Assembly (NCBI RefSeq): GCF_014646235.1
Contig: NZ_BMNB01000018.1
Location: 1-64,000 of the forward strand
Direction: 5' to 3'
DNA length: 64,000 bases
From: Micromonospora sonchi
GTDB taxonomy: Bacteria > Actinomycetota > Actinomycetes > Mycobacteriales > Micromonosporaceae
How positions within the stretch are numbered: position 1 is the stretch's first letter; each line of letters opens with the position of its first letter. The notes below the pieces were generated by a model, which did no database searches, was not told the origin of the DNA, and was given only the letters and a program-made list of their open reading frames with translations. Position numbers and translations under genes: made by a program. This document shows positions 7,511 through 22,026 of the stretch, piece after piece.

Positions 7511-8985
7511 CCGGGGTGGGCGTGAGCATGGCGCAGAGCGTCGACAGCGTGGCGCTGCTGCCGGCGTACCTGGCCGCCGGGACCGCCGTACTGGCGCTCC
7601 TGGTCGACCTGCTGCTGGCCCGGCCGGCGGCCACCGTGGCCACGGCGGCCACCGGTGCGGTCGCCACTGCGGTCGGGGCGGCGGTCGTCGGTGCCGGTGC
7701 CGAGCGCCGCACCTTTTGCGTCGGCCCCGACTGCTCGTACGTCTTCGGTGGCCGGGCGGCGCTGGTCGCCGCGTTGGTGGCGCTGCTGGCCCTCGGGGTG
7801 CTGGCGCTGTCCGGGCCGCTGCTGCGGGCCGGCAGAACCCCGGTGGGGGAGTTCTGCTTCCTGCTCGCCTGCTCGATGACCGGCGGTGTGGTGCTCGGTG
7901 CGGCCGGCGACCTGATCACCCTGATCGTGGCGCTGGAGACCCTCACCCTGCCGCTGTACATCCTGGTCGGGCTGCGCCGGGGCAGCCTGGCCAGCGCCGA
8001 GGCGGCGTTGACCTTCTTCGTGGTCAGCGTGGTGGCCACCACGCTGACCCTGCTGGGTGCCGCGCTGCTCTACGCGGTCACCGGCGGGCTGCACCTGGAT
8101 CGGCTGGGCGTGGCGCTGGCGGACCGCTCGGAACTGCTCGACCTGCCGCTGACCGGGGTCGCCGTGACGGTGCTGGTGGCGGGGCTGGCGTTCAAGGTGG
8201 CGGCGGTGCCGTTCCACGCCTGGGCCCCGGCCACGTACGACGGGGCGCCGCTGCCGGTGGCCGCGTACCTGTCGACCGCGTCGAAGCTCGGCGGCGTGGT
8301 CGCCCTGCTGGCCGTCGTACAGCTCGCGCTGCCGCAGGGGGTGACCGGGCCGGTGCTGGCCCTGGTCGCCGCGCTGACCATGACCGTGGGCAACCTGGTG
8401 GCGCTGCGCCAGCGGCGTACCGTGCGGCTGCTGGCGTGGTCCTCGGTGGCCCAGGCCGGCTACATCCTCGCCCCGCTCGGTGCCCTGGCCCTGGCCGACG
8501 CCGACGCCCGCACCGGCGCGTACGCCGCCGCCCTGGCGTACGCCGTCTTCTTCGTGCTGCTGGAGTTGGCGGCCTTCGCGGGTGTGGTGGCCCTGCGCCC
8601 GGCCGGCGCGGACGGCGGCCGCCTGGACGAGCTGCGGGGCGCCGCCCGCCGGCATCCGTGGATCGGCGCCGCCCTCGCGTTCGCGCTGGTCGGGCTGGCC
8701 GGCCTGCCGCCCGCCCTGGCCGGACTCTTCGCCAAGGTGGCGGTGGTCCGGTCGTTGCTCGACGGCGGTGCCGGCTGGCTGGCCCTGGTGGTGGCGGTGA
8801 ACGCGGTCATCGGTCTGGCCTACTACCTCCGCTTCGCCGCGCTGCTGTACGCCCCGACCGGCGACGCGGTGACCCCCCTCGCCCGGCCGGCCCGCGCGGT
8901 CGCCGGGGCGCTGGCGGTGGCCACCGTGCTGGCCGTGATCGTCGGCTTCGCGCCGCAGTTGGTGCTCGATCTTGCCGGGAGTTGA
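7507..8985 (+). CDS. nuoN: NADH-quinone oxidoreductase subunit N
   Basis: 492-aa antiporter-like subunit (ND2 type), last of the operon. Seen: LIVALETLTLPLYILVGLRR with the conserved Glu, FKVAAVPFHAWAPATYDGAP with Lys and His, and KLGGVVALLAV followed by VGNLVALRQ. ATG start within the nuoM stop. About 106 bp separate it from htpX. With nuoI-M it makes a membrane arm plus the Fe-S subunit I; the remaining subunits must come from elsewhere. Confidence 0.94.
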   Translation: MTGVGVSMAQSVDSVALLPAYLAAGTAVLALLVDLLLARPAATVATAATGAVATAVGAAVVGAGAERRTFCVGPDCSYVFGGRAALVAALVALLALGVLALSGPLLRAGRTPVGEFCFLLACSMTGGVVLGAAGDLITLIVALETLTLPLYILVGLRRGSLASAEAALTFFVVSVVATTLTLLGAALLYAVTGGLHLDRLGVALADRSELLDLPLTGVAVTVLVAGLAFKVAAVPFHAWAPATYDGAPLPVAAYLSTASKLGGVVALLAVVQLALPQGVTGPVLALVAALTMTVGNLVALRQRRTVRLLAWSSVAQAGYILAPLGALALADADARTGAYAAALAYAVFFVLLELAAFAGVVALRPAGADGGRLDELRGAARRHPWIGAALAFALVGLAGLPPALAGLFAKVAVVRSLLDGGAGWLALVVAVNAVIGLAYYLRFAALLYAPTGDAVTPLARPARAVAGALAVATVLAVIVGFAPQLVLDLAGS

Positions 8986-11624: not shown

Positions 11625-12119
11625 TTACTTGTAGTTGGTGAACTGGAGGGCGACGTCGAAGTCCTCCGCCTTGAGCAGCGCGATGACGGCCTGGAGGTCA
11701 TCCTTCTTCTTGCCGGTCACGCGCAGTTGGTCGCCCTGGATCTGGGCCTGGACGCCCTTGGGGCCCTCGTCGCGGATCTTCTTGCTGATCGCCTTGGCCT
11801 TCTCCTGGTCGATGCCCTGCACCACCTTGGCATCGATCTTGAAAATCTTGCCCGACGACCGAGGGTCGCCCGCGTCCAGCGACTTCAGCGAGATGTTGCG
11901 CTTGATCAGCTTCTCCTTGAACACCTCCAGCGCGGCCCGTACGCGCTCCTCCGTCTCGGCCTGGACGCTGATCGCCTCCTCGCCCGACCAGGAGATCTCC
12001 GCGCCGGTCCCCCGAAAGTCGAACCGCGTCGTGAGCTCCTTCTCCGCCTGACGAAGAGCGTTGTCGACCTCCTGGCGGTCGACCTTGCTCACGATGTCGA
12101 ACGACGGGTTCGCTGCCAT
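11625..12119 (-). CDS. yajQ: YajQ family c-di-GMP-binding protein
   Basis: 164-aa cytoplasmic protein of the YajQ/UPF0234 family; some members bind cyclic di-GMP and act as effectors. Seen: the N-terminal [18 protein letters not shown] block, TRFDFRGT, the central [20 protein letters not shown], and [21 protein letters not shown], covering the two ferredoxin-like halves over the full family length (~163 aa). Two ATGs occur two codons apart; the second (12119) is preferred because AGGAG is seven bases upstream of it but only one from the first. Transcribed away from tRNA-Tyr. Confidence 0.92.
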
Positions 12120-12198
12120 GCTCATGCTCCTGCTGTCCGGCTGGTTTGGGATCCTTTGCCCCTGATGACCAGGGGTACGACACCCTGACGGTACCCGG

Positions 12199-12229
12199 TT
12201 GCGACGGTGGCGGGGGAAGCCGCTATTCT
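12199..12229 (+). promoter_or_regulatory. Probable promoter of tRNA-Tyr
   Basis: TATTCT at 12224-12229 is a good -10 box about 40 bp before the tRNA. A weak -35 (TTGCGA, 12199-12204) is 19 bp upstream. Confidence 0.45.
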
Positions 12230-12267
12230 TGCTTCGCTGCCGCGCCGCCGGTGCGGTGGTACGCCCT

Positions 12268-12351
12268 GGCGGGTTGCCCGAGCGGCCAATGGGAGCGGAC
12301 TGTAAATCCGTCGCGAAAGCTACAGAGGTTCGAATCCTCTACCCGCCACCA
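12268..12351 (+). tRNA. tRNA-Tyr (GTA)
   Basis: Class II tRNA. Acceptor GGCGGGT pairs with ACCCGCC (12341-12347), followed by discriminator A and an encoded CCA (12349-12351). The anticodon GTA is at 12302-12304 in ACTGTAAATC. A long variable arm is present, and the T loop GTTCGAATC is canonical. The 3' half is repeated in degenerate form at 13035-13088. Confidence 0.95.
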
Positions 12352-12359
12352 GGTGCGAC

Positions 12360-12399
12360 AACGGCCCCTGACCAGCAGGAATGCTGATCGGGGGCCGTT
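12360..12399 (+). terminator. Hairpin terminator after tRNA-Tyr
   Basis: AACGGCCCC (12360-12368) pairs with GGGGCCGTT (12391-12399) across a 22-nt loop, followed by TCTCGTT. This is the expected end of the tRNA-Tyr transcript. Confidence 0.65.
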
Positions 12400-12459
12400 C
12401 TCGTTGATCTAGCTCGGTCCGGCTGAGTCCAGCCCGTTGCGACGCGTTGTGGGCATATC

Positions 12460-12606
12460 GCGGTGGCGGTGGTCAGCAGCAACTCGTTGGTCGGCTACGC
12501 GAATCGGCCGGCGAAGGTAGACGCCTTCCGGCTCGCCAGGACTGGCGCGGTGGTCACCAGCATGGGCGAGATAGCTACAGCGCTGATCGACCTGGTCGGC
12601 GGCTGA
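12460..12606 (+). pseudogene. Possible C-terminal remnant of a HAD-family hydrolase
   Basis: A 49-codon frame ending at the stop 12604-12606 reads SLVGYANRPAKVDAFRLA then TGAVVTSMGEIATALIDLV. The pair 'GYANxPxKxxxL..AxAVVTSMxE(I/L)xxAL' is the usual end of actinobacterial HAD-superfamily phosphatases. The catalytic N-terminal half (DxDxT) is absent, because the preceding sequence is the tRNA-Tyr terminator region. Recognition is by memory of the pattern only. Confidence 0.4.
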
Positions 12607-12617
12607 GGTCAGGTTGC

Positions 12618-12926
12618 CTACTTCACCATCCGCATCGGCTGATCCGTCAAGGCGCTGTAGCCGAGAACAACCAAGAACACGAGACCGACCGCAGCGAAAG
12701 CTACGCCAATCACCCGTTCCAGCAGGATGAAGCGTGCTGGACGCTCATTGTGCGTGACATCTGGTAGCCAGCCCCAACGCGGAACTCGCCGGAGCGCGCT
12801 CGCGGTGAACATCGACCGGTGCACGTGCCTCTCCGCCACGCCGCGAAAGTTGGTGGCGAGGGCGACGCCTACGAAGCACATAGTCACGCTCATCGCGACA
12901 CCCGCTAGGAAGCGCCAGGTCTCCAT
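12618..12926 (-). CDS. Hypothetical two-helix membrane protein
   Basis: 102 aa, not recognised. One hydrophobic segment at about residues 6-25 and another at 72-93, joined by a ~45-residue basic loop (RGVAERHVHRSMF... RRVPRWGWLP), so probably a small inner-membrane protein with a cytoplasmic or exposed loop. Base use is less GC-rich than in neighbouring core genes, as in the rest of this accessory stretch. It sits between tRNA-Tyr and the degenerate tRNA copy. A real gene is plausible because both helices and the loop are well ordered. Confidence 0.5.
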   Translation of the reverse strand: METWRFLAGVAMSVTMCFVGVALATNFRGVAERHVHRSMFTASALRRVPRWGWLPDVTHNERPARFILLERVIGVAFAAVGLVFLVVLGYSALTDQPMRMVK

Positions 12927-13034
12927 CTGACCCCCTCCCCGATGTGGTTACCGGATCTTAGTTGCCGGATCCTGGTCGCATCCGTGTCACCGTGTCGGGG
13001 CGTTTGTGCTGGTCAAAGGCCGGTGCTTGGCGCT

Positions 13035-13088
13035 CTGTAAATCCGTCGCGCGGAAGCTACACAGGTTCGAATCCTTCACCCGCCACCA
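13035..13088 (+). repeat. Degenerate 3' half of tRNA-Tyr
   Basis: CTGTAAATCCGTCGCG is identical to the functional gene at 12300-12315. The copy then differs by a 2-nt insertion and changes in the T stem (ACAGG/CCTTC no longer pair) before the final ACCCGCCACCA. Similarity continues beyond the CCA (AGTGCGA...GGCCCCT against GGTGCGA...GGCCCCT). The 5' half is not recognisable, so it cannot work as a tRNA. It may be an old att-site copy or a decayed tandem tRNA. Confidence 0.75.
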
Positions 13089-13109
13089 AGTGCGAAGAAT
13101 GGCCCCTCT

Positions 13110-13378
13110 GGGTTGGCTCGGGCTCCTGCCGATGGTGCCTGCGTTCGCGGGGAGCCTTTTGGTTGCTGTCCTGGATGGACGCCAGCATGGAAACCCGCGT
13201 CGCGCTGTTCGGGCCGATCTTCGTCGGGCTGTCCGGGCTGGTAACAGCGCCGCTGGGGCTGGCTGCTCAACAGCACCCGGACCCCCCAGGGCCGTGTCTG
13301 GCACGACCGCCACACCCTCTACAACGACCCGCTGCAGTACGCCTCCGGTCTACGCCATCCCGGCGCTCATTGAGGGGT
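13110..13378 (+). pseudogene. Frameshifted membrane-protein remnant
   Basis: No intact gene lies between 13090 and 13628. Stringing three frames gives WLGLLPMVPAFAGSLLVAVLDG, then METRVALFGPIFVGLSGL, then GWLLNSTRTPQGRVWHD ending at the stop TGA about 13378. The order of two hydrophobic segments and a polar tail looks like one small membrane protein broken by two frameshifts. The family is not recognised; the reconstruction is an inference. Confidence 0.35.
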
Positions 13379-13608
13379 TGTGGGCGCAGATCGTAAGCGG
13401 GTCGATTCTGTCCTTTGAGTGCTCCTCTGGGCTGCGTCTGCTGGTCGTTGCGACGGAGGTCGAGGGGCGGAAGGCCCACAATCTGCCCCAAATGAGGCTT
13501 TCCTCGACACGTTCGCTGAGGGCGAGGTGGCCGGGAGTGAAGAAGAGTCGTGCCGCGCCGTGACGCCGTGGTCGCTCTGACCGTTATCCCCCAGAGATGG
13601 GACTCGTT

Positions 13609-13622
13609 CTATAACGTAGGGG
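13609..13622 (+). promoter_or_regulatory. Possible -10 box of the toxin-antitoxin pair
   Basis: TATAAC in TTCTATAACGTAGGGG lies about 14-20 bp before the GTG chosen for the toxin, so the transcript would have a very short leader. No clear -35 is seen. Confidence 0.4.
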
Positions 13623-13628
13623 TTGTAC

Positions 13629-14018
13629 GTGGGCTACAGTGGGGGCGCAGGTGAGTGGCGAATCGACTTGACCGACGAGGTTGACGAGTGGCTCGTCCGC
13701 CTGGGTAAGGAAGACCAAGACTCCGCCGACCAGGTAGCTGCCGCCATCGACATCCTCGCCAGGGAAGGCCCGACCTTGGGTCGCCCTCTGGTCGACCGAG
13801 TCAAGGGTTCGGACTACAAGAACATGAAGGAGCTCCGGCCCGGCTCCTCGGGTGGCACCGAGATCCGCATCCTGTTCGCCTTCGATCCGCTCCGGACAGC
13901 CATCCTGCTGGTGGCAGGGAACAAAGCCGGCAACTGGAAGGGCTGGTATGAGACCAAGATCCTTGAGGCTGACAGTCTCTTCGCCAAACACCTTCGATCG
14001 ATGAAGGGACAACGCTGA
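13629..14018 (+). CDS. HigB/RelE-type toxin (phage Gp49-like)
   Basis: 129 aa. Toxin of the RelE/HigB superfamily, mRNA interferases that cleave ribosome-bound mRNA. Seen: ADQVAAAIDILAREGPTLG RPL in two parts, LVDRVKGSDYKNMKELRPG, TEIRILFAFDPLRTAILLVAGNK and the C-terminal WYETKILEADSLFAKHL. This is the beta-sheet core with the basic catalytic strand in the usual order and length. GTG 13629 is preferred over TTG 13623 because AGGGG lies about seven bases upstream. Its stop overlaps the antitoxin start by one base. The toxin-first order is the HigBA order. Confidence 0.82.
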   Translation: MGYSGGAGEWRIDLTDEVDEWLVRLGKEDQDSADQVAAAIDILAREGPTLGRPLVDRVKGSDYKNMKELRPGSSGGTEIRILFAFDPLRTAILLVAGNKAGNWKGWYETKILEADSLFAKHLRSMKGQR

Positions 14019-14323
14019 TGGCGCGCAGTTGGCGGGAGACCCGATCCCGCATGAACCTCGACGAGGCCAAGGTTGCCGAGCACAAGGAACGAATGCTTGC
14101 CGAGGTCCGCGCCACCCGCCTGCGTGAGATGCGCGAGCGTCGCGGTCTGACTCAGCGGGAGGTTGCTGACCGCATGCACGTGTCCCAGCCGCGGGTTGCC
14201 GCGATTGAGAAGGGTGAAGTGCCAACGACTGAGGTCGGCACCATCGAGCGGTACGTCGCTGCTCTCGGTGGCAAGCTGGAGATCATCGCCGACTTTGACG
14301 GTGACCGGCTCGCGTTGAGCTGA
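14018..14323 (+). CDS. HigA-type antitoxin, XRE helix-turn-helix
   Basis: 101 aa. Antitoxin partner that should neutralise the preceding toxin and repress the pair. N-terminal ~35 residues are a charged helix region (AKVAEHKERMLAEVRATRL). The HTH follows: MRERRGLTQREVADRMHV and SQPRVAAIEKGE, then YVAALGGKLEIIADF, the end seen in XRE antitoxins of this type. Translationally coupled to the toxin (TGATG). It converges on the phosphatase gene downstream. Confidence 0.85.
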   Translation: MARSWRETRSRMNLDEAKVAEHKERMLAEVRATRLREMRERRGLTQREVADRMHVSQPRVAAIEKGEVPTTEVGTIERYVAALGGKLEIIADFDGDRLALS

Positions 14324-14376
14324 CTGCGCCCACAAGCAGGAGGGGCGCAATGATGAAAGCCTCCTGCTCGCGCGGC

Positions 14377-15207
14377 CTACTCGTGGTGGAACTCGGTGAC
14401 TGTCAGCGTCTTGTCATCGTGACGCTTGCTGCGCGGCCATCGGTTGCCCTCAGGGTCTTCGGCTTCGGCGTCGTGGACCAGGTTCACGAGACCAGCGGGA
14501 TCGGCCAAGGCCATCTCAACGGCCGTGTTCCAGTCCGGTGGCCGGCGGTAGCGGTCTACGCCGGCAGATACGCCGTCGGTCATCATCACGGCGGCGGCCA
14601 CGTCGTCGCGCCTCCATCGGCCGCTGATCGCTTGGGCTGCTGCCTCGGGTGCCGCTTCGGCTATCCAGTACCCGCCCGGCCGGTTGCGGTGGCCGCGCTC
14701 GGCATCAACGAGGGTGCGCCACCGGTCGCGGTCGTCGAATCTGAACCCGCCGTCCGCATGCCCCGCTAGATGTTGGCGCTGGTGGCTGGCGACCTGGTGT
14801 AGTCGGTCATCGCGCACCTGGTGTAGCTCACCGTCACGAGCCAGCACGACGACGGGACTGTCGCCAAGGACCAAAACGTCGACCACCTCGTCGTTCCAGC
14901 GGGCGATGCTGACGGTGGTTGAGGGAGCCGCGCCCGGTTGCAGCTCGTATCGTTCGGCGACGGATGTGATGGCGTCGGCGAGGATTCGGCGTAGGTCGTC
15001 GTGGCGGTGGTCGAGGAGCTGAGCGAGTTCACGGCCGAGCGTGTCGGCCAGCCAGCCTCCGTTGCGCTCGCCGGCCTCTGGCTGCGATGCGCCGTCGAGC
15101 ACCACAACGGCGTTTGCGATGGTGAAGACGCGATCCTCGCTGGGGCGATCCGGGCAAGGGCGCTCTGCCGTACGGATGGTCGCTAGTCGTGCGTTCGTGG
15201 CGGGCAC
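14377..15207 (-). CDS. PP2C-family Ser/Thr protein phosphatase
   Basis: 276 aa, likely cytoplasmic, no membrane segment. Metal-dependent phosphatase of the PPM/PP2C fold. Seen in order: EDRVF (D25), VVVLDGAS (D38, normally DGxGG), STTVSIA at 96-102, VLGDSPVVV at 113-121, MMTDGVSAG (D211) and DDKTLTV (D264/D265), so the metal-binding Asp set is complete. The start overlaps the end of the HTH gene by 25 bp, indicating one transcript. The substrate is unknown. The upstream partner is the obvious candidate for regulation, but no phosphorylation site can be inferred. Confidence 0.8.
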   Translation of the reverse strand: MPATNARLATIRTAERPCPDRPSEDRVFTIANAVVVLDGASQPEAGERNGGWLADTLGRELAQLLDHRHDDLRRILADAITSVAERYELQPGAAPSTTVSIARWNDEVVDVLVLGDSPVVVLARDGELHQVRDDRLHQVASHQRQHLAGHADGGFRFDDRDRWRTLVDAERGHRNRPGGYWIAEAAPEAAAQAISGRWRRDDVAAAVMMTDGVSAGVDRYRRPPDWNTAVEMALADPAGLVNLVHDAEAEDPEGNRWPRSKRHDDKTLTVTEFHHE

Positions 15208-16022
15208 AGGAGTTGGCTCCTTGTCACCGTTTCGCCGTCGTGATCGCTGGCGACGACCATCGAGAACGGGCGTGTACCGACCTGGGCGTAGAGGTCGGGA
15301 AGGTTCTGGGCCAAATAGTCGACGGCGCCGACCGAACCGAGCGCATGGACACCTGCAATCACAAGCAAGTTCTCGCCACCGGCCGGCAGTGAAGGTCGGC
15401 CGACGTACGCCACGTCAGACCACCGCTTCGCCTTCGTGTCATCCATGGGTGACTCGTAAACCCGGCTGCCGTCACGCTCGCGGATAGTCCAGTTTCCGGA
15501 CTCGTCGGGCTCGAACGTGAGGAACGGGTCCTTGCTGATGGCTTCGGCCGCCACTGGTGAGGATTTCGGACCACAGATGGCGACGGCATCGCTGCTCGGC
15601 TGCCAGTGACCGTCAGGCGGGATGCGAAACTGCTCCACCTGGAAGGACAGGTCGGTGAGCAGCCGGGTAAGCCGCTCGGCGGCCCGGGTGTCCTCGGACG
15701 AGATGACCGGCAGCGCGCGGCCGGGGATCTCTCGCAACGGCAGCGCGACGGTTACCGGACCGACGCCGAAGAAGACTCGCTCTGCGGGTGGTGCCGTCTG
15801 CCGTATCTGGGTGATTCGGCCACGGGTGAGCCCCAACTCGGCCGCGATGGCGCTGTAGGAGATGCCGCCTTCGGACGCCGCCCGGTTGATCGCTTCCTTG
15901 CGGAGCCGTGCGAGTTCTACCGATCGCTGCTGGTACAGCGCGATGAGTTCGCTGGCGAGCTTCGCCTGGCGCAGCGGATCAGTCTCGCTGCGAACTCGTT
16001 CGAACTGGCTGGCAGGCTCCAT
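15183..16022 (-). CDS. HTH protein with an uncharacterised alpha/beta sensor-like domain
   Basis: 279 aa. N-terminal ~75 residues are helical with a sigma-like helix-turn-helix: GISYSAIAAELGLTRGRITQI at about 53-73. Residues ~88-135 look like an alternating beta/alpha start (VTVALPLREIP, VISSEDTRAAERLTRLL). A second block ~145-265 has VAICGPKSSPVAAEAI, YVGRPSLP, a glycine-rich LLVIAGVHALGSVGAVDYL and PFSMVVASDHDG. I recall similar unstudied actinobacterial proteins but know no function. The glycine-rich motif suggests ligand or nucleotide binding, which is inference. First gene of a two-gene transcript with the PP2C gene, divergent from the DUF6907-like pair. Confidence 0.65.
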   Translation of the reverse strand: MEPASQFERVRSETDPLRQAKLASELIALYQQRSVELARLRKEAINRAASEGGISYSAIAAELGLTRGRITQIRQTAPPAERVFFGVGPVTVALPLREIPGRALPVISSEDTRAAERLTRLLTDLSFQVEQFRIPPDGHWQPSSDAVAICGPKSSPVAAEAISKDPFLTFEPDESGNWTIRERDGSRVYESPMDDTKAKRWSDVAYVGRPSLPAGGENLLVIAGVHALGSVGAVDYLAQNLPDLYAQVGTRPFSMVVASDHDGETVTRSQLLCPPRTHD

Positions 16023-16029
16023 GCGGGAA

Positions 16030-16140
16030 GTTTAGGCCCCCTTGACAGTGCTGATGTGACCGCTAATCTGTTTATACCCCCTAAGCGCCTTTGTTGTCGA
16101 CTACCTCTCGCGTTTAGGGGCCTAAGCGAGGGCCTAGGCG
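16030..16140. promoter_or_regulatory. Divergent overlapping promoters with TTAGG/CCTAA operator-like repeats
   Basis: Rightward: TTGACA (16042-16047), 16 bp, TAATCT (16064-16069). Leftward: TCGACA (complement of 16095-16100), 18 bp, TATAAA (complement of 16071-16076). The two -10 boxes are one base apart, so polymerases should compete. Repeats flank them: TTTAGGCCCCC at 16031-16041, CCCCCTAAG at 16077-16085 inside the leftward spacer, and TTTAGGGGCCTAAG at 16113-16126, which is itself an inverted repeat. The HTH protein encoded next door is the natural candidate to bind them. Confidence 0.6.
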
Positions 16141-16251
16141 CGCCGAGCCCTCGAATCGGGTCGGTGGCTGACTCGTTCCCCCTGGTCGGCCACCGCCCTC
16201 GAATTTGGAGGTGCGCATGCCTGGCTGTTGGAAAACTGAGGGAGATCGGCG

Positions 16252-16587
16252 GTGGGCGCGGTGAGCACGACGAGCAAACCGGTGCATCCGGACTGGTGTG
16301 TGCCGGATCGGTGTGGGCATCTGGTGCCGCCGGTGATGGCGCACATGCGGCGGCGGCATCGGGGCGTACTGCTGAAGGTCGGTGAGGTGCGCCCGTCCGG
16401 GACGGTGTTGTCGTACCTGATCGGGTCCGATGGCCAGGCTCCGAGCGTGACGGTGCACGTGGCCTGCCGGGCGGGCGTCGCCTGGGCTGAGCTTTCGCTA
16501 CCGCAGGCCGGTCAGTTGGTCGAGCAGTTGCGGTCGTTGTTGGGGCAGGTCGGCTGCGAGGGAGGACGCGAGCATGGGGAGGGCTGA
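16252..16587 (+). CDS. DUF6907-like small protein, first of a tandem pair
   Basis: 111 aa, function unknown. Begins with a HPDWCVPDRCGH motif at about residues 12-23, then MRRRHRGVLLKVGEVRP and a beta-rich middle, ending with a helix LPQAGQLVEQLRSLL. The 'CPxWC...H...' opening and the final helix match what I recall as DUF6907 proteins of Streptomyces. GTG 16252 has GGAG seven bases upstream. It overlaps the next gene by 14 bp. Transcribed rightward from the divergent promoter at 16042-16069. Confidence 0.55.
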   Translation: MGAVSTTSKPVHPDWCVPDRCGHLVPPVMAHMRRRHRGVLLKVGEVRPSGTVLSYLIGSDGQAPSVTVHVACRAGVAWAELSLPQAGQLVEQLRSLLGQVGCEGGREHGEG

Positions 16588-16918
16588 CGAGCCGGCCGGC
16601 GCCCGGCGCGCCACGGCGGGGATCGACGCTGCCTGTCCTGACTGGTGTCGGGGCTGCGGGCCGGACGATCCGATGCATCGGGGGCTGCTCGCCACGGTCG
16701 GCACCGAGCGCGGCGGCTGGGTGAGTGTGCAACTGCTTCTGGACCGGTTCCGCCGCCGCGAACCGGTCGTCAAGGTCGACGCGACCCGCTCCGGGGCCAC
16801 CGAGTCGGTGCTGCTCTCGCCTGTTCAGCTCGACCGGCTGATCTACGAGTTGACCTACGTCCGCTGGCGGGTGATGACCAAGGGGCGACCCCTGGAGGGA
16901 CGCTACGACCGCGACTGA
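16574..16918 (+). CDS. DUF6907-like small protein, second of a tandem pair
   Basis: 114 aa. Paralogue of the preceding gene by layout: CPDWCRGCGPDDPMHRG at about residues 21-37, then GGWVSVQLLLDRF, a variable middle, and VLLSPVQLDRLIYEL as the final helix. The Cys/His cluster could bind a metal, but only the residues are seen. ATG with GGAGG about nine bases upstream, inside the end of the upstream gene, so translationally coupled. It converges on the hypothetical gene on the minus strand. Confidence 0.55.
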   Translation: MGRADEPAGARRATAGIDAACPDWCRGCGPDDPMHRGLLATVGTERGGWVSVQLLLDRFRRREPVVKVDATRSGATESVLLSPVQLDRLIYELTYVRWRVMTKGRPLEGRYDRD

Positions 16919-16925
16919 GCAGCCG

Positions 16926-17366
16926 TCACTCCTGCGGCGTGGCCTCGTGGCCGGGCAGTCCGGGGGTACGCCGCCGCTGCTTCATCTCCGCCTCGTAGAT
17001 GTGCCGCCGGCCGCCGGCCAGCTCCTCCCGGGCGTACCGCTCGATCTCCTGGAAGGCCGCGTAGTAGCCGTCGTCGAACTCCTCCACGATCTGGAAGGTC
17101 CAGCGGCCGGGTAGCACGTTGCGACCCAGCAGCTCGTGTTCGACGCGGTCGGCGACGGCGTGGTGCCCGGCCTCGCGGAGGAGCTGCACCACCCGGTCGA
17201 GGGTGAGGTCCGCACCGCCGACGAGTTGGTGCGCGGAGTAGAGGTGCCCGCGGACCCGGTGGATGGTCTCCAGGGCCTTGCTCAGTTCACCCAGTGCCTC
17301 GACCGTGGTGTCGTCGACACCGTCCGGGCGGGAGTGCTCGTCGTCCACCCTGCTGCCGTGCGCCAT
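16926..17366 (-). CDS. Conserved hypothetical protein
   Basis: 146 aa, soluble, mostly helical and acidic, family not recognised. Seen: ALGELSKALETIHRVRGHLY, DLTLDRVVQLLREAGHHAVAD, then WTFQIVEEFDDGYYAAF and a basic C-terminal tail. The pattern of helices separated by GGADL and NVLPGRW, and codon use like that of core genes, argue for a real chromosomal gene rather than island content. The start is the ATG giving MAHGSRVDDE. Confidence 0.65.
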   Translation of the reverse strand: MAHGSRVDDEHSRPDGVDDTTVEALGELSKALETIHRVRGHLYSAHQLVGGADLTLDRVVQLLREAGHHAVADRVEHELLGRNVLPGRWTFQIVEEFDDGYYAAFQEIERYAREELAGGRRHIYEAEMKQRRRTPGLPGHEATPQE

Positions 17367-17507
17367 GCCCGCTCAATACCCGCGGTCGTCCGGCGTACGC
17401 GGCTCAACCGGGTGACCGGACGCCGAGCGAGGTCGCAGCGGAGAAAACTGCGGTGTCCGCTAGATCCGCTACGGCAGGTAAGGCTGTAATGGGCAGTTGG
17501 GGTTTTC

Positions 17508-17567
17508 TTTCGGCCTGACCAGCGGCCTTTTCGGCCCGACCACCGGCTTGCTTCGGCTGACCTGCCC
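17508..17567 (+). repeat. Short imperfect direct repeats in a gene-free stretch
   Basis: TTTCGGCCTGACCAGCGGC (17508-17526) and TTTCGGCCCGACCACCGGC (17529-17547) differ at two positions. A third partial copy (CTTCGGCTGACCTGCCC) follows. The rest of 17367-17708 shows no gene that I can support. Confidence 0.55.
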
Positions 17568-17708
17568 GGACGTACACCAGTGAGCTACGTACGTGCCACG
17601 GGCGGCGACGACCGGGCCGACATCCGCCCGTGAACTTTCCACCGGCCAAGCCACTGTGGCACCATCGGGGGACCCCATACCGTTTGCGATCACCAATCAG
17701 GAGCACTT

Positions 17709-17855
17709 ATGTCTGCTCTACGTCTGGGCCGGTTGCTCGGCTCCTTTTTGCTGGTCTCCAGCCTGGTAGTCGCGGCCGGTGCCGTCGCGGAGCTCGAATT
17801 CAGGACGTCGGGCATGGACTGGGCCATCTCCGTGCTGGGCTCGCTGGTGCCCTGA
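17709..17855 (+). CDS. Putative 48-aa membrane or secreted peptide
   Basis: ATG with AGGAG six bases upstream; 48 codons: MSALRLGRLLGSFLLVSSLV continuing AAGAVAELEFRTSGMDWA to a final LVP. A basic N-terminus plus a hydrophobic stretch at about residues 9-26 looks like a signal anchor or signal peptide; the AGAVAE segment could be a cleavage region. It ends 44 bp before the GGDEF-EAL gene, so co-transcription is likely. The good ribosome site and the coding-like third positions support it. Family not recognised. Confidence 0.6.
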   Translation: MSALRLGRLLGSFLLVSSLVVAAGAVAELEFRTSGMDWAISVLGSLVP

Positions 17856-17899
17856 CGGGCGAGCCCCGCGCTCGGCCATCTGAACCGACGAGGGGAACC

Positions 17900-20434
17900 A
17901 TGACGTCTCGTCCCCGTTCCACTCATCGGCGAACGGAATACGCCTGGCTCATCACCGGGCCCTTGGCGCTCTGCGCGGTGCTCGTCTGTCTGCTGCTCGG
18001 CCTGATGGCCGATCCCGCCCTGGGAAGACTGCCGGTCACCCTGCTGCTCACCGTGGCCATGGCCGCCGCCGCCGTACCGACCATCAACGTGGTCATCCGA
18101 CGACAGGCGTTCCTGGTCTTTCCCACCGAGATCCCCCTCGTCGTCGCGTTGTTCGCGCTTCCGCCGCTGTCGGTGGTGCTGGCGTACACCGTGGCCTCGC
18201 TCGTGATCCAACTGCGGCGCAAGCTGCTGCCGGTGAAGCTCTGGTTCAACGTGGCCGGCGCCGCGGCGGCGACCTCGCTGGCCACATTGGTCTACACCGT
18301 CCTGCGGGAAAAGCCCGGGGACGTCGGACCGGGGACGTGGGGGGTCCTGCTCGCCGCCATCAGCGTCCACGCCGTGGTCCAGCTCGCGGCCATGGCCGGG
18401 GTGTTCACCGTCGTGCAGAGCTGGCAGGCCGGGCGGGAGCTGATCCGCGCCGGCGGCCCGCCGATGCTGCTCGGGGTCGTGATCAACCTCTCGATCGGCT
18501 TGCTGATCATCATCTCGCTGGACAGCACCCAGTGGGCCATCCTGATCTTCGCCGGGCTGGCTGTGGCGTTCGCGCTGGTCTACCACTCGTACGCGCAGTT
18601 CCTCCGGCAGCACCGCACGCTCAGCGAGATGTACGAGCTGACCAAGGCGATCACCGAGAGCGGGTCGGACGGGAACCTGATCGACGCGTTGCTGGTGCGG
18701 ATCCGGAGCCTGATGCAGGCGGAATCCGCCACCCTCTGGGTGCCCGCACAGGGCCGCCACCCGGAGGTGCTGTTGACCGCCCAGGAGGGTAAGCCGGGGC
18801 TGTTGGACTCCACGCCGACTCCGGCGGAGCTGCGCGAGGCCGCGTTGGTTCGGCAGGAGACGGTGGCGGTGAGTCACCGGCTCGGCGGTGACTCCGCGTT
18901 GCGCGAGGTGCTGGAGCCGACGAAGGTCAAGGACGTGATCGTGGTGCCGCTGCGCTCCGGCAAGGCGGTCATCGGCACCCTTGAGGTCGCCAACCGGCTC
19001 GGCGACACCAACTCCTTCGGCACCCCGGACGTCACGGTCTTCGAGACCGTGGCGGCGCACGCCGCGGTGGCGCTGGAGAATTCCCGCCTGGTCGACCGGC
19101 TGCGGCACGACGCGTACCACGACGGCCTCACCAAGCTGCCCAACCGGCGGCGGATCCTCGGTGCGCTGGCCGAGGCGGTCCGGATCCGCGCCCCGGGCGA
19201 GGTGGTCGCGCTGCTGCTCTTCGACGTCGACCGGCTGCGTCAGGTCAACGAGTCCCTCGGGCACGCGGCGGGGGACAAAGTCCTGGTCGAGGTCGCCGAC
19301 CGGCTGCGTGGCTGCGCACCATCGGCCGCGCTGGTCGGCCGGGTCGGCGGTGACGAGTTCCTGGTGACCCTGCGGTTGGAGAGCGTCGAGGCGGCGGTGG
19401 AGCTCGCCGGCCAGTTGCGGGAGCAGATCCGCGACGAGATGGCCTTCGACGCCCTGACGCTGGACGTGGACACCGCCGTCGGGGTCGTCGTCCACCCGGA
19501 TCACGGCAGCGACGCGGCCACCCTGCTCCAACGGGTGGACGCGGCGGCGGCTGTGGCGAAGTCGGTCCCGGGAAGCGTGCAGTTGTACAGCCCCACGCTG
19601 GAGTCCCGCTCGCTGCGCCGGCTCGGGCTCGCCGGTGATCTGCGCACCGCCTTCGACGACGGTGAGCTGGAGGTCTACTACCAGCCCAAGGTGACGTTGC
19701 GGGACCGCCGGCTGGTCGGCGTGGAGTGTCTGGCCCGCTGGGAGCATCCGACGCAGGGCGCCGTCACCCCGGAGGACTTCGTCGCAGTGGCCGAGCACAC
19801 CGGTCAGCTGGACCGGCTCACCGAGTTCGTGCTCCGGGAAGGGCTGCGGCGCAGCCGCGACTGGGCGCTCGGGGGCCACGCGCTCGCCGTCGCGGTCAAC
19901 CTCTCCGCGCGTACGCTCATCGACCCGCACTTCCCCGACCGGGTACGCGAACTGCTGAACGAGTACGACGTCCCGGCGCAGCTGCTGACGCTGGAGATCA
20001 CCGAGGCCGGGGTGCTGGACGGCACGGACCGCCCGATCCCGACCCTGCGCCGCCTGCGGGACCTCGGCGTACGGCTGTCCGTGGACGACTTCGGCACCGG
20101 CAACTCCTCCCTGGCCCACCTGCGCCGGTTGCCGGTGAACGAGGTCAAGGTCGACCGGTCGTTCGTGCAGGGCATGGCGACCGACCCGGGCGACCTGGCG
20201 ATCGTCAACGCCGTGGTCACCCTCTCCCAGCAGTTCGGTCTGGCGGTGGTGGCCGAGGGCGTGGAGAGCGAGTTGACCCTGGAACTGCTCCAGGACATCG
20301 GGTGTGAGATCGGCCAGGGGTTCCTGTTCAGCCGCCCCCTGCCGTACGAGCGGCTGGAGGCTTGGTTCGGTGCCCAGGTCGACCCCGAGACGATCTCCAA
20401 CAGCGAGCTTCCGCGCCTCCGCGTAGTGCCCTGA
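17900..20434 (+). CDS. Membrane GAF-GGDEF-EAL cyclic-di-GMP protein
   Basis: 844 aa. N-terminal ~230 residues hold about seven hydrophobic helices. A GAF domain follows at about 258-395, GGDEF at 400-560 and EAL at 575-820. GGDEF residues are intact (483-487), so cyclase activity is possible. No RxxD inhibitory site precedes it. In the EAL domain the signature reads ECLARW (E609, Cys for Ala), with NLSA, LEITEAG, SVDDFGTG and AEGVE present, so phosphodiesterase activity is plausible. Net direction of c-di-GMP turnover cannot be read. ATG at 17900 follows AGGGG. The upstream 48-aa peptide may be its partner. Confidence 0.88.
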   Translation: MTSRPRSTHRRTEYAWLITGPLALCAVLVCLLLGLMADPALGRLPVTLLLTVAMAAAAVPTINVVIRRQAFLVFPTEIPLVVALFALPPLSVVLAYTVASLVIQLRRKLLPVKLWFNVAGAAAATSLATLVYTVLREKPGDVGPGTWGVLLAAISVHAVVQLAAMAGVFTVVQSWQAGRELIRAGGPPMLLGVVINLSIGLLIIISLDSTQWAILIFAGLAVAFALVYHSYAQFLRQHRTLSEMYELTKAITESGSDGNLIDALLVRIRSLMQAESATLWVPAQGRHPEVLLTAQEGKPGLLDSTPTPAELREAALVRQETVAVSHRLGGDSALREVLEPTKVKDVIVVPLRSGKAVIGTLEVANRLGDTNSFGTPDVTVFETVAAHAAVALENSRLVDRLRHDAYHDGLTKLPNRRRILGALAEAVRIRAPGEVVALLLFDVDRLRQVNESLGHAAGDKVLVEVADRLRGCAPSAALVGRVGGDEFLVTLRLESVEAAVELAGQLREQIRDEMAFDALTLDVDTAVGVVVHPDHGSDAATLLQRVDAAAAVAKSVPGSVQLYSPTLESRSLRRLGLAGDLRTAFDDGELEVYYQPKVTLRDRRLVGVECLARWEHPTQGAVTPEDFVAVAEHTGQLDRLTEFVLREGLRRSRDWALGGHALAVAVNLSARTLIDPHFPDRVRELLNEYDVPAQLLTLEITEAGVLDGTDRPIPTLRRLRDLGVRLSVDDFGTGNSSLAHLRRLPVNEVKVDRSFVQGMATDPGDLAIVNAVVTLSQQFGLAVVAEGVESELTLELLQDIGCEIGQGFLFSRPLPYERLEAWFGAQVDPETISNSELPRLRVVP

Positions 20435-20465
20435 GCTTGGCGTACGCCGCCTCGCCGGATCCGAT

Positions 20466-20494
20466 TTCACCAGCGCGGCATGGCCGTGTACTCT
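20466..20494 (+). promoter_or_regulatory. Promoter of the tRNA-Thr/tRNA-Met unit
   Basis: TTCACC (20466-20471), 17 bp, TACTCT (20489-20494), placed 33 bp before tRNA-Thr. Confidence 0.55.
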
Positions 20495-20526
20495 TACCTC
20501 TGCGCGACCACCGAGTGATCGCACAG

Positions 20527-20599
20527 GCCCCCTTAGCTCAGTCGGCAGAGCGTCTCCATGGTAAGGAGAAGGTCTACGGTTCGATTCCGTAAGGGGGCT
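20527..20599 (+). tRNA. tRNA-Thr (GGT)
   Basis: 73 nt. Acceptor GCCCCCT pairs with AGGGGGC (20592-20598). D arm TAGCTCAGTCGGCAGAGC, anticodon GGT at 20560-20562 in loop ATGGTAA, T loop GTTCGATTC. No CCA is encoded. Confidence 0.95.
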
Positions 20600-20624
20600 C
20601 AGAGGGTCCGGCTGGGCCCACCAC

Positions 20625-20697
20625 GGCGGTGTAGCTCAGATGGCAGAGCAAGCGGCTCATAATCGCTGTGTCGCCGGTTCAAGTCCGGCCACCGCTA
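20625..20697 (+). tRNA. tRNA-Met (CAT), elongator type
   Basis: 73 nt. Acceptor GGCGGTG against CACCGCT with a terminal G-T pair. Anticodon CAT at 20658-20660 in loop CTCATAA, T loop GTTCAAGTC. The full acceptor pairing and the position beside tRNA-Thr and rpmG fit the elongator rather than the initiator. No CCA is encoded. Confidence 0.9.
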
Positions 20698-20732
20698 CTC
20701 TCCGTCCGCCGGGTTCCCGGTGGTCGTAGGAC

Positions 20733-20749
20733 GGGCGCCCCAGGCGCCC
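20733..20749 (+). terminator. Short hairpin after tRNA-Met
   Basis: GGGCGCC (20733-20739), loop CCA, GGCGCCC (20743-20749), then ACTTTG. Likely end of the tRNA transcript. Confidence 0.5.
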
Positions 20750-20752
20750 ACT

Positions 20753-20782
20753 TTGCGTGTCCGCTCAGGCGGCGCATAAGCT
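20753..20782 (+). promoter_or_regulatory. Possible promoter of rpmG
   Basis: TTGCGT (20753-20758), 18 bp, TAAGCT (20777-20782), about 44 bp before the rpmG start. Confidence 0.4.
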
Positions 20783-20825
20783 GTAGCGCCGTAGTTGTAT
20801 CCGTTAACGAGGAAGGCACTCCGCC

Positions 20826-20993
20826 GTGGCGAAGGCGACCGATGTCCGGCCGAAGATCACTTTGGCGTGTGTGGAGTGCAAGGAGCGCAACTACATCACG
20901 CGCAAGAACCGCCGCAACGACCCGGACCGCATCGAGCTGAAGAAGTTCTGCCCCCGGGACGGGCGGCACACGATTCACCGCGAGACCCGCTGA
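20826..20993 (+). CDS. rpmG: 50S ribosomal protein L33
   Basis: 55-aa L33 with GTG start and a GAGGAAGG ribosome site. The body [21 protein letters not shown] is canonical. C15, C18 and C42 of the usual CxxC...CxxC zinc ribbon are present, but the fourth Cys is replaced: FCPRDGRHT has Asp45. Binding through H48 or no zinc at all is possible. Located between tRNA-Met and hadA, the order found in mycobacteria and relatives. Confidence 0.95.
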
Positions 20994-21032
20994 CCCTGTC
21001 CGGGCCGAGTCGGCCCGGCTCCAGGCGTACCC

Positions 21033-21102
21033 ACGATCGCCGATCCGCCACGGTCGGCGCGGCCCGTTCGGGTCTGCGCTGACCGCACGGATCGGCGATC
21101 GT
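21033..21102 (+). terminator. Long near-perfect hairpin between rpmG and hadA
   Basis: Outer arms ACGATCGCCGATCCG (21033-21047) and its complement (21088-21102) pair perfectly over 15 bp. The inner part (CGGTCGGCGCGG against CTGCGCTGACCG) continues the stem with two G-T pairs and a bulge, making a ~70-nt structure. CCTTTA follows. A terminator of rpmG is the simplest reading. Confidence 0.6.
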
Positions 21103-21124
21103 CCTTTACGTGTAGGTTCGCGGC

Positions 21125-21571
21125 ATGTCCCTGGACCACTCCTTCGTCGGCCGGAGCTATCCGCCGACCGCCCCCTACCAGGTGGGCCGCGAGAAGATCC
21201 GTGAGTTCGCGACGGCGATCGGGGCCACCGATCCCGCCCACCACGACCCGGAGGCCGCCCGCGCGCTTGGGCACCCGGACGTGGTCGCGCCGCCGACCTT
21301 CCCGATGGTGCTCACCATGGCCGCCAACCGACAGCTCATCGAGGACCCGGACCTCGGGCTCGACTACAGCCGGGTCGTCCACGGCGACCAGCGGTTCGCC
21401 TACACCCGTCCGGTGGTGGCCGGCGACGAGCTGGTCTGTGTCAACACCGTCGAGGACGTCACCAGCCGCGGCGGCCATGACTTCGTGACCACCCGGACCG
21501 ACGTCAACACGACCGCCGGCGAGCCGGTGGTCACCGCCTGGATGAAGCTCGTCGTACGCGGGGAGGCCTGA
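21125..21571 (+). CDS. hadA: HadA-like (3R)-hydroxyacyl dehydratase subunit (FAS1-like hot dog fold)
   Basis: 148 aa. Non-catalytic-type partner of a (3R)-hydroxyacyl-ACP/CoA dehydratase; in mycobacteria HadAB acts in the FAS-II elongation cycle. Seen: VGREKIREFATAIGATDPAHHDP, VVAPPTFPMVLT, VVHGDQRFAYTRPVVAGDELVC in two blocks, typical of the N-terminal MaoC-like dehydratase domain. Immediately followed by hadB, and the order rpmG-hadA-hadB-trnW-secE-nusG matches mycobacteria, although no hadC is present. Its native substrate here is unknown. Confidence 0.85.
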   Translation: MSLDHSFVGRSYPPTAPYQVGREKIREFATAIGATDPAHHDPEAARALGHPDVVAPPTFPMVLTMAANRQLIEDPDLGLDYSRVVHGDQRFAYTRPVVAGDELVCVNTVEDVTSRGGHDFVTTRTDVNTTAGEPVVTAWMKLVVRGEA

Positions 21572-21572
21572 C

Positions 21573-21965
21573 GTGGAACTGCCCACCCAGACGTTTCGGG
21601 TGACCCGGGCGGACCTGGTCCGCTACGCCGGCGCCTCGGGGGACTTCAACCCGATCCACTGGAGTGACCGGTTCGCCACCAAGGTCGGCCTGCCCGGAGT
21701 GATCGCCCACGGCATGTTCACCATGGCGCTGGTCGGCCGGGCGCTCACCGCCTGGGCCGGCAGCGCCGACGCGGTGGTCGAATTCGGCGTCCGGTTCACC
21801 CGCCCGGTGGTCGTGCCCGACGACGACGAGGGCACCGAGATCGTGGTGAGTGCGGTGGTCCGCGAGGTGGCCGAGTCGGGGCTGACCAGGCTCGACATCA
21901 CCGCGACCTGCCATGGCGAGAAGGTGCTTTCGCAGGCGCGGGCCACCCTGCGAACGACACGCTGA
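21573..21965 (+). CDS. hadB: HadB-like MaoC family dehydratase, catalytic subunit
   Basis: 130 aa, hot dog fold R-specific hydratase/dehydratase. The catalytic motif is present in YAGASGDFNPIHWSD (Asp and His) at about residues 18-32, followed by LPGVIAHGMFTMALVGR, the usual second block. GTG start one base after the hadA stop, so the two subunits are translated together, as expected for a heterodimer. Confidence 0.87.
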   Translation: MELPTQTFRVTRADLVRYAGASGDFNPIHWSDRFATKVGLPGVIAHGMFTMALVGRALTAWAGSADAVVEFGVRFTRPVVVPDDDEGTEIVVSAVVREVAESGLTRLDITATCHGEKVLSQARATLRTTR

Positions 21966-21996
21966 CCGGCACCGGACGACGTGATCGGTAGACCGG

Positions 21997-22026
21997 TTGG
22001 GAAAGTCGGGTCGGTACCCGTACACT
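21997..22026 (+). promoter_or_regulatory. Promoter of tRNA-Trp/secE/nusG
   Basis: TTGGGA (21997-22002), 18 bp, TACACT (22021-22026), 66 bp before tRNA-Trp. The TACACT -10 recurs before rpoB and infA. Confidence 0.6.

Follow-up and report, generated by a model that had tools for sequence, protein, structure and literature searches.

A coupled helix-turn-helix regulator and PP2C-type phosphatase gene pair as a probable control cassette of actinobacterial integrative elements

What holds together the four genes between positions 14377 and 16918 of Micromonospora sonchi contig NZ_BMNB01000018.1 (assembly GCF_014646235.1), and what might they control? The window analysed here comprises positions 1 to 64,000 of that contig. 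In it the open reading frame of a helix-turn-helix (HTH) regulator (15183..16022, minus strand, 279 amino acids) is followed by a gene for a PP2C-type Ser/Thr phosphatase (14377..15207, minus strand, 276 amino acids), whose first 25 nt overlap the end of the HTH gene. Two small Cys genes, C1 (16252..16587, 111 amino acids) and C2 (16574..16918, 114 amino acids), overlap by 14 nt and lie upstream of the HTH gene on the plus strand. The open frames agree with the coordinates and both overlaps given in an initial annotation of this DNA, which had taken the four genes to be one ligand-sensing, phospho-regulated system. Judged by the sequences compared below, that system is two modules, HTH-PP2C and C1-C2. 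The first is probably the control cassette of an integrative element of the AICE (actinomycete integrative and conjugative element) type, with the role that KorSA has in known elements, and this kind of control appears not to have been described for actinobacterial mobile elements. The support is computational: the pairing of the two genes, the elements around them, sites resembling operators, the predicted fold and signs of selection.

The HTH-PP2C pair and its genomic context

Close relatives of the HTH protein (E <1e-80) are present in 26 of 394 genomes of the class and in 24 plasmid records; in a tally of 108 genomes with HTH matches, most match the N-terminal part alone. (Gene calls in our analysis scripts were simple, and the genome set is partly redundant.) The phosphatase matches PP2C_2 (PF13672) with 44.4 bits against a cut-off of 24. 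Its residues D25, D38, D211, D264 and D265, which we take from the familiar PP2C motifs to be metal-binding, had been singled out in the initial annotation, and all five are Asp in 49 of 49 paired relatives. The ratio of non-synonymous to synonymous substitution (dN/dS) is 0.10–0.20 for the HTH gene (five relatives) and 0.23–0.36 for the PP2C gene (seven relatives); both genes are therefore maintained and are not chance frames.

A PP2C gene lies directly 3' of the HTH gene in 42 of 49 full-length genome loci (the window included), the PP2C profile match starting no more than about 20 nt from the HTH stop codon in each of the 42. On plasmids the two are adjacent in 22 of 24 HTH records, the exceptions being NZ_LN868939 and NZ_CP109431 (coordinates compared by eye). 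The distances among HTH proteins follow those among their PP2C partners (Mantel r 0.897, a value reached by 0 of 5000 permutations) over 49 pairs made up of 42 genome loci, four plasmids and three loci with a partial HTH; these loci are not independent, as five genomes contribute two each. The two genes thus stand as a unit by adjacency and by divergence in step, and the expectation that HTH relatives would keep the same neighbours is borne out for PP2C and fails for the DUF6907-like genes, which most of them lack. No natural HTH-PP2C fusion was noticed (locus L135 looks frameshifted), and the PP2C copy of L031 retains the metal Asp residues. In public records the PP2C partner is labelled "integrase" on Streptomyces plasmids (H1, H2, H9, H11, H15, H18) and "UTRA domain-containing protein" on three others (H45, H46, H50), labels that hide the pair.

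The coupling could have a different meaning, in which the phosphatase acts on host proteins and prepares the cell for transfer or establishment of the element, being merely controlled by the HTH protein. Nine of 31 plasmid records with the PP2C gene have no HTH gene alongside, and in two loci (L132 and L133) the HTH gene is reduced to its 3' end next to a full-length PP2C match. The tight pairing and co-divergence described above argue against this explanation, which we regard as unlikely.

The neighbours of the pair are those of a mobile element. Families found around paired loci include RepSA, FtsK/SpoIIIE, integrase and XRE-DUF5753 proteins, and Pfam confirmed RepSA, FtsK and integrase on example neighbours. 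Profiles made from genes of these families detected one or more of pra, tra, repSA and integrase in the stretch read at 34 of 56 loci (pra at 14, tra at 21, repSA at 22 and integrase at 28, some of the integrase matches being possibly unrelated to the element). We use the name pra after the annotation in one plasmid record, "plasmid replication, integration and excision activator". Two layouts recur. In the first, seen at 14 loci, XRE-DUF5753, HATPase, HTH and PP2C genes follow one another on one strand, and on the same strand downstream lie pra (9 of the 14), tra (12), repSA (10) and integrase (10). The second has the genes pra, tra, repSA and int pointing away from HTH-PP2C (L065, L068, L117, L118 and L121). 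Two of these five are near relatives of the window locus, L117 (HTH 85% identical) and L118 (76%); both have a divergent pra about 0.7 kb away, centre to centre, followed by tra, repSA and int, and both lack C1-C2. On named plasmids the operons divergent to the pair contain WhiB, Lsr2, GGDEF, zinc-binding or FtsK genes.

Two other settings were considered and rejected. The defence role held possible in the initial annotation finds no backing, as none of the four proteins matches PADLOC at E values up to 1 and the neighbourhoods indicate transfer and replication. A phage origin was dropped after a search of 50,697 phage records without a match at E 1e-5 and a viral_contigs scan without a relative.

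In 14 of 56 loci the pair has a HATPase gene upstream, at a distance of up to about 1.1 kb, and all ten of the HATPase proteins that were tested pass the HATPase_c_2 cut-off of Pfam. It bears on a sharper form of the cassette reading, a phospho-switch proper, in which a kinase would phosphorylate the HTH protein (or the nearby HATPase), the PP2C would reverse this, and the balance would decide whether the element stays silent. Consistent with such a switch are the invariant metal Asp residues, the coupling and co-divergence of the two genes, the HATPase gene itself (preceded by operator-like sites at four loci) and HTH residues 66 and 254, which are Ser or Thr in all rows aligned there. Against it, no HATPase gene was found near the pair in the window's own clade, and no kinase family is among the first 25 of 101 neighbour families listed for the Micromonospora-like set; moreover, HATPase_c_2 and XRE-DUF5753 genes side by side may be an independent unit, and the conserved Ser/Thr residues may be structural or contact DNA. 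We hold this sharper form as a tentative possibility, with somewhat less than even confidence.

Operator-like sites and the HTH protein

The initial annotation had placed a shared control region between the divergent genes, and conserved operator-like palindromes are indeed present in the gap there. Box B (GTTTAGGCCCCCTTGAC, 16030..16046), box A (GTTTATACCCCCTAAGC, 16070..16086; 0 occurrences in 100 shuffles) and box C (GTTTAGGGGCCTAAGC, 16112..16127) lie upstream of the HTH gene. A putative divergent promoter, TTGACA-N16-TAATCT (16042..16069, plus strand), faces C1, and the same promoter element faces pra in L117 and L118. Boxes A and B are common to the upstream sequences of the window, L017, L018, L019, L117 and L118 (box C is less strict in L018), and within box B CTGTCAAGGGG and CTAA are invariant in all six. 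By eye, all six also carry the divergent promoter in the form TTGACA-N16-TA...T, with its -35 hexamer inside box B and its -10 hexamer touching box A.

The motif GYTTA-N6-7-TAARC occurs at three places in the whole M. sonchi genome, two of them in the 229-bp gap upstream of the HTH gene. The strict motif has 15 sites upstream of HTH genes in 9 of 53 loci and none in the other 789,787 bp; the wider motif is found 35 times upstream, in 27 of 53 loci, and 10 times outside these regions, a 155-fold enrichment, and box B occurs 24 times upstream and 10 times in other parts of the 53 loci. The wider motif or box B precedes the HTH gene in 35 of 53. In its widest form the motif has 73 sites in 840 kb (56 loci), of which 65 lie between -350 and +40 of the start of an HTH gene (45), HTH and pra together (9), pra (5), pra and tra (1), HATPase (4) or PP2C (1); the remaining eight fit no such start, three of them being about 430 nt before tra. 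All forms of the motif were drawn from the set itself, the strict one from the window's clade and the wider ones from other clades, so that the lack of sites in the rest of the same loci and of the genome is the fairer control. L170, L132 and L133 have no operator-like site, and at the 16 examined loci with C1-C2 and no HTH-PP2C (L170-L185) none lies within 350 nt before C1; chance-like sites occur in L172, L177, L179 and L181.

The protein that would read these sites is predicted to have a long helix and a sigma4/KorA-like helix-turn-helix at about residues 16-76, followed by an alpha/beta C-terminal domain at about 79-279, in a confident model (pLDDT 93.3, pTM 0.88). Pfam sees the HTH below its cut-off (best 20.3 bits against 25), and a sequence search of the PDB gives weak HTH matches; judging by its relatives, the family is nonetheless real. 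Sigma-70 was tried as an identity and rejected, with Sigma70_r4 matching alone at 15.4 bits (cut-off 24.1) and sigma70-ECF reaching 12.5 (cut-off 42.9). The same N-terminal domain is fused to UTRA in L063, L064 and L094, a swap of the effector part, and neither a GntR nor a UTRA domain was found by Pfam in the window protein up to E 1. Its C-terminal domain therefore occupies the position of the UTRA effector domain, which makes the sensor role given to it in the initial annotation plausible.

In structural comparison this domain resembles the N-terminal domain of GH67 alpha-glucuronidase (1mqq; Z 12.5, root-mean-square deviation (rmsd) 2.2, 124 residues), BcsB (7l2z; Z 11.8, rmsd 2.7, 126 residues), an S-layer anchoring domain (9fsa; Z 9.3, rmsd 3.1, 119 residues) and the N-terminal domains of GH115 and GH84 (Z 9.4 and 9.2). 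By Foldseek alone the resemblance is borderline (best E 3.1e-3, so that no match reaches 0.001), and in a viral structure library the similarities were only weak, all with E values above 0.001. The TIR and SLOG folds, which the initial annotation had proposed for comparison, are not among the best matches listed for the HTH model. The likeness is one of fold: no Pfam match of the GH67N, BcsB or S-layer type was found up to E 1, the PDB sequence search gave a single stray match in the C-terminal part (E 0.89), and a GH67N profile run across 60 genomes had one hit, below threshold, which lies in the window's own genome and away from the locus. In the known proteins such domains sit in enzymes or surface proteins, whereas here the domain is part of a predicted DNA-binding protein. 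In a profile comparison (against 6 rows only) the XRE-HTH proteins L087-L091, with frames of 365-411 amino acids, have a C-terminal domain related to that of the window protein (probability 92%, E 5.6e-7, 157 columns). A further possible relative (E 3.6e-5), at L092:6690-7487, looks membrane-anchored by eye and has relatives in 15 of 148 genomes of the class.

The fold invites a bolder version, a phosphatase-gated element regulator whose own PP2C (with the HATPase in one group) sets its active or inactive state, and whose sensor domain, akin to those of glycan-linked enzymes and surface proteins, would read the cell-wall or growth state of the host before transfer. We consider this rather doubtful as a whole.

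The mechanism that we infer for the control cassette itself goes further than these results in DNA binding, in repression as against activation, in what the phosphatase acts on, in the signal and in any consequence for C1-C2. The HTH protein would bind palindromes of the form GYTTA/GTCTA-N6-7-TAARC/TAGAC in its own control region and before pra, and would so regulate, most likely repress, its own operon and the replication and transfer genes of the element; repression is favoured over activation because box B covers the divergent -35 hexamer. The C-terminal domain would take the effector position, and the coupled PP2C would tune the switch; its simplest target would be the HTH protein, or the HATPase partner where there is one. 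On this reading the HTH protein is an autoregulatory master regulator of an AICE, probably a repressor. From the window the element itself would have gone, the cassette remaining near tRNA-Tyr with its old divergent promoter now facing C1-C2.

The tRNA-Tyr site, a probable relic in the window and the C1-C2 module

The initial annotation had tied the locus to an accessory region behind tRNA-Tyr, and the comparison bears this out. This tRNA gene, the presumptive integration site, is real (12268..12351, plus strand), and its 3' end is duplicated at 13030..13095 (plus strand) with 88.5% identity over 61 nt, apparently a decayed attachment (att) scar; at L018 the corresponding repeat, which has an integrase frame between its copies, is 100% identical over 61 nt. 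The site lies between the tRNA-Tyr side and a stretch with tRNA-Thr, tRNA-Met and tRNA-Trp, flanked by genes that we take to be YajQ (tRNA-Tyr side) and of the nusG/rplK type (tRNA-Thr side). It is shared by L018 and L019, and also by L017, L120, L132 and L170 as far as their genes were covered. The HTH protein of L120 is only 37% identical at this same site, so different pairs must have landed there. We read the window copy as a relic near tRNA-Tyr, still under purifying selection.

Several observations weigh against the cassette reading. The pair lies outside the visible att scar, and may therefore stem from an older insertion; no remnants of int, repSA, tra or pra were found in positions 11901-22000 of the window (best E 0.09). 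Elsewhere, 22 of 56 loci have no backbone gene in the stretch read, and seven of the 49 HTH loci lack PP2C (L020, L022, L025, L030, which is at a contig end, L083, L084 and L086), so the HTH gene can exist alone. A generic promoter and terminator scan found nothing in the control region, 18 of 53 loci have neither the wider motif nor box B, so that some clades use something else, and, the strict motif having been drawn from the window's clade, only L031, L085 and L127 support it independently. A copy under purifying selection with no element genes detected around it would also fit the capture of a host stress regulator in the distant past, coincidence having put element genes close to it; the backbone genes at 34 of 56 loci, the 24 plasmid records and the operator-like sites before pra make this improbable.

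C1 and C2 belong elsewhere. They are paralogues with a common Cys/His motif (dN/dS 0.31–0.71 for C1 with three relatives, 0.18–0.22 for C2 with four), and the DUF6907-like label that they had been given is weak, with C2 reaching 17.6 bits against a Pfam cut-off of 26 and C1 having no Pfam match. A Pur-alpha/PC4-type single-strand nucleic-acid-binding fold ranks first for the C2 model (pLDDT 78.8; Z 6.8, rmsd 2.3, 70 residues), which is below the reliable level and only a hint. Each has relatives in 56 of 160 genomes of the genus, mostly side by side, and they directly adjoin HTH-PP2C in four (G000, G036, G001 and G012). At L171-L185 a GntR-UTRA-like gene lies 3' of C2 in 15 of 15 loci (Pfam finds both GntR and UTRA in all four examined), and many of these have a glycosyltransferase gene, a 146-amino-acid gene and FtsK- or pra-like genes nearby. 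The 146-amino-acid gene, which also goes with C1-C2 in AICE-like loci, is present in the window just beyond C2 (16926..17366, minus strand). The window's genome has a second C1-C2 pair (G000:C17:9769-10411, L171) near an FtsK-type gene.

At L170 (genome G507), which is the window's chromosomal site, HTH-PP2C is absent and a GntR-UTRA gene (8083-8856) is divergent to C1; by eye an inverted-repeat sequence lies between the two. This apparent replacement of HTH-PP2C by a gene of the KorSA kind, with loss of the motif, we count in favour of the control-cassette role. The four-gene, ligand-sensing system with DUF6907-like effectors, possibly defensive, could still draw on the four genomes in which the genes stand together, on the conserved divergent promoter before C1-C2, and on looser associations: C1-C2 some 13 kb away from a different HTH-PP2C pair in G001 (contig 55) and G448 (contig 66), and in G499 a weak match to C2 (E 3.3e-4) some 5 kb from such a pair. 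Four adjoining cases among 56 genomes, the regular GntR-UTRA neighbour, L117 and L118 with the pair alone, and the lack of PADLOC matches leave it very improbable.

The toxin-antitoxin pair mentioned in the initial annotation, a Gp49/HigB-like toxin and an HTH antitoxin (13623..14323, plus strand), is a neighbour only; its proteins match Gp49 (59.1 bits) and HTH_31 (49.7 bits) in Pfam, and it is present in L018 too. A long gene at 17630-20434, presumably with GGDEF/EAL-like motifs, marks the chromosomal site in several relatives. The G+C content is 65.5% for the HTH gene and 67.7% for the PP2C gene, against 70.4% across the first 20 kb of the contig.

Comparison with known systems

Such elements move genes between actinobacteria, many of which are antibiotic producers. 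If the role proposed here is right, HTH-PP2C would be a further and widespread type of AICE control with a defined candidate operator, and would place a phosphatase where the AICE literature searched (mainly open-licence) showed none: the word "phosphatase" has no occurrence in PMC3218068, PMC8584621, PMC9513070, PMC4063739 and PMC11706625, and no description of the pair was found in a search of mainly open-licence literature, most subscription papers lying outside its scope.

In the sources consulted, AICE control has been described for the pSAM2-type KorSA/Pra system, together with XRE and GntR genes; KorSA, a GntR-family repressor of AICE replication and transfer, represses pra in pSAM2, and Pra activates the repSA-xis-int operon (PMC3218068, PMC8584621). 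The likeness is that HTH-PP2C adjoins pra, that operator-like sites lie in its own and the pra control regions, and that L170 carries a GntR-UTRA gene at the same chromosomal site. It differs from KorSA in that the window HTH protein has no GntR or UTRA domain and instead combines a sigma4/KorA-like HTH, another effector domain and a coupled PP2C.

A second parallel is the partner switching of RsbW with a PP2C phosphatase, a known system. In 14 of 56 loci HATPase_c_2 and PP2C genes flank the sigma4-like protein, which hints at partner switching in that one group; the PP2C here, however, fits the PP2C_2 profile and not the SpoIIE type, the HTH protein is no sigma factor, and the window's clade has no HATPase.

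In ImmR/ImmA and SetR/SetCD, an element regulator is paired with a gene that can relieve or tune it. These pairs, of ICEBs1 and SXT respectively, are named in PMC4063739. HTH-PP2C resembles them in joining a regulator to a gene that would tune it, and differs from them in that its partner is a phosphatase.

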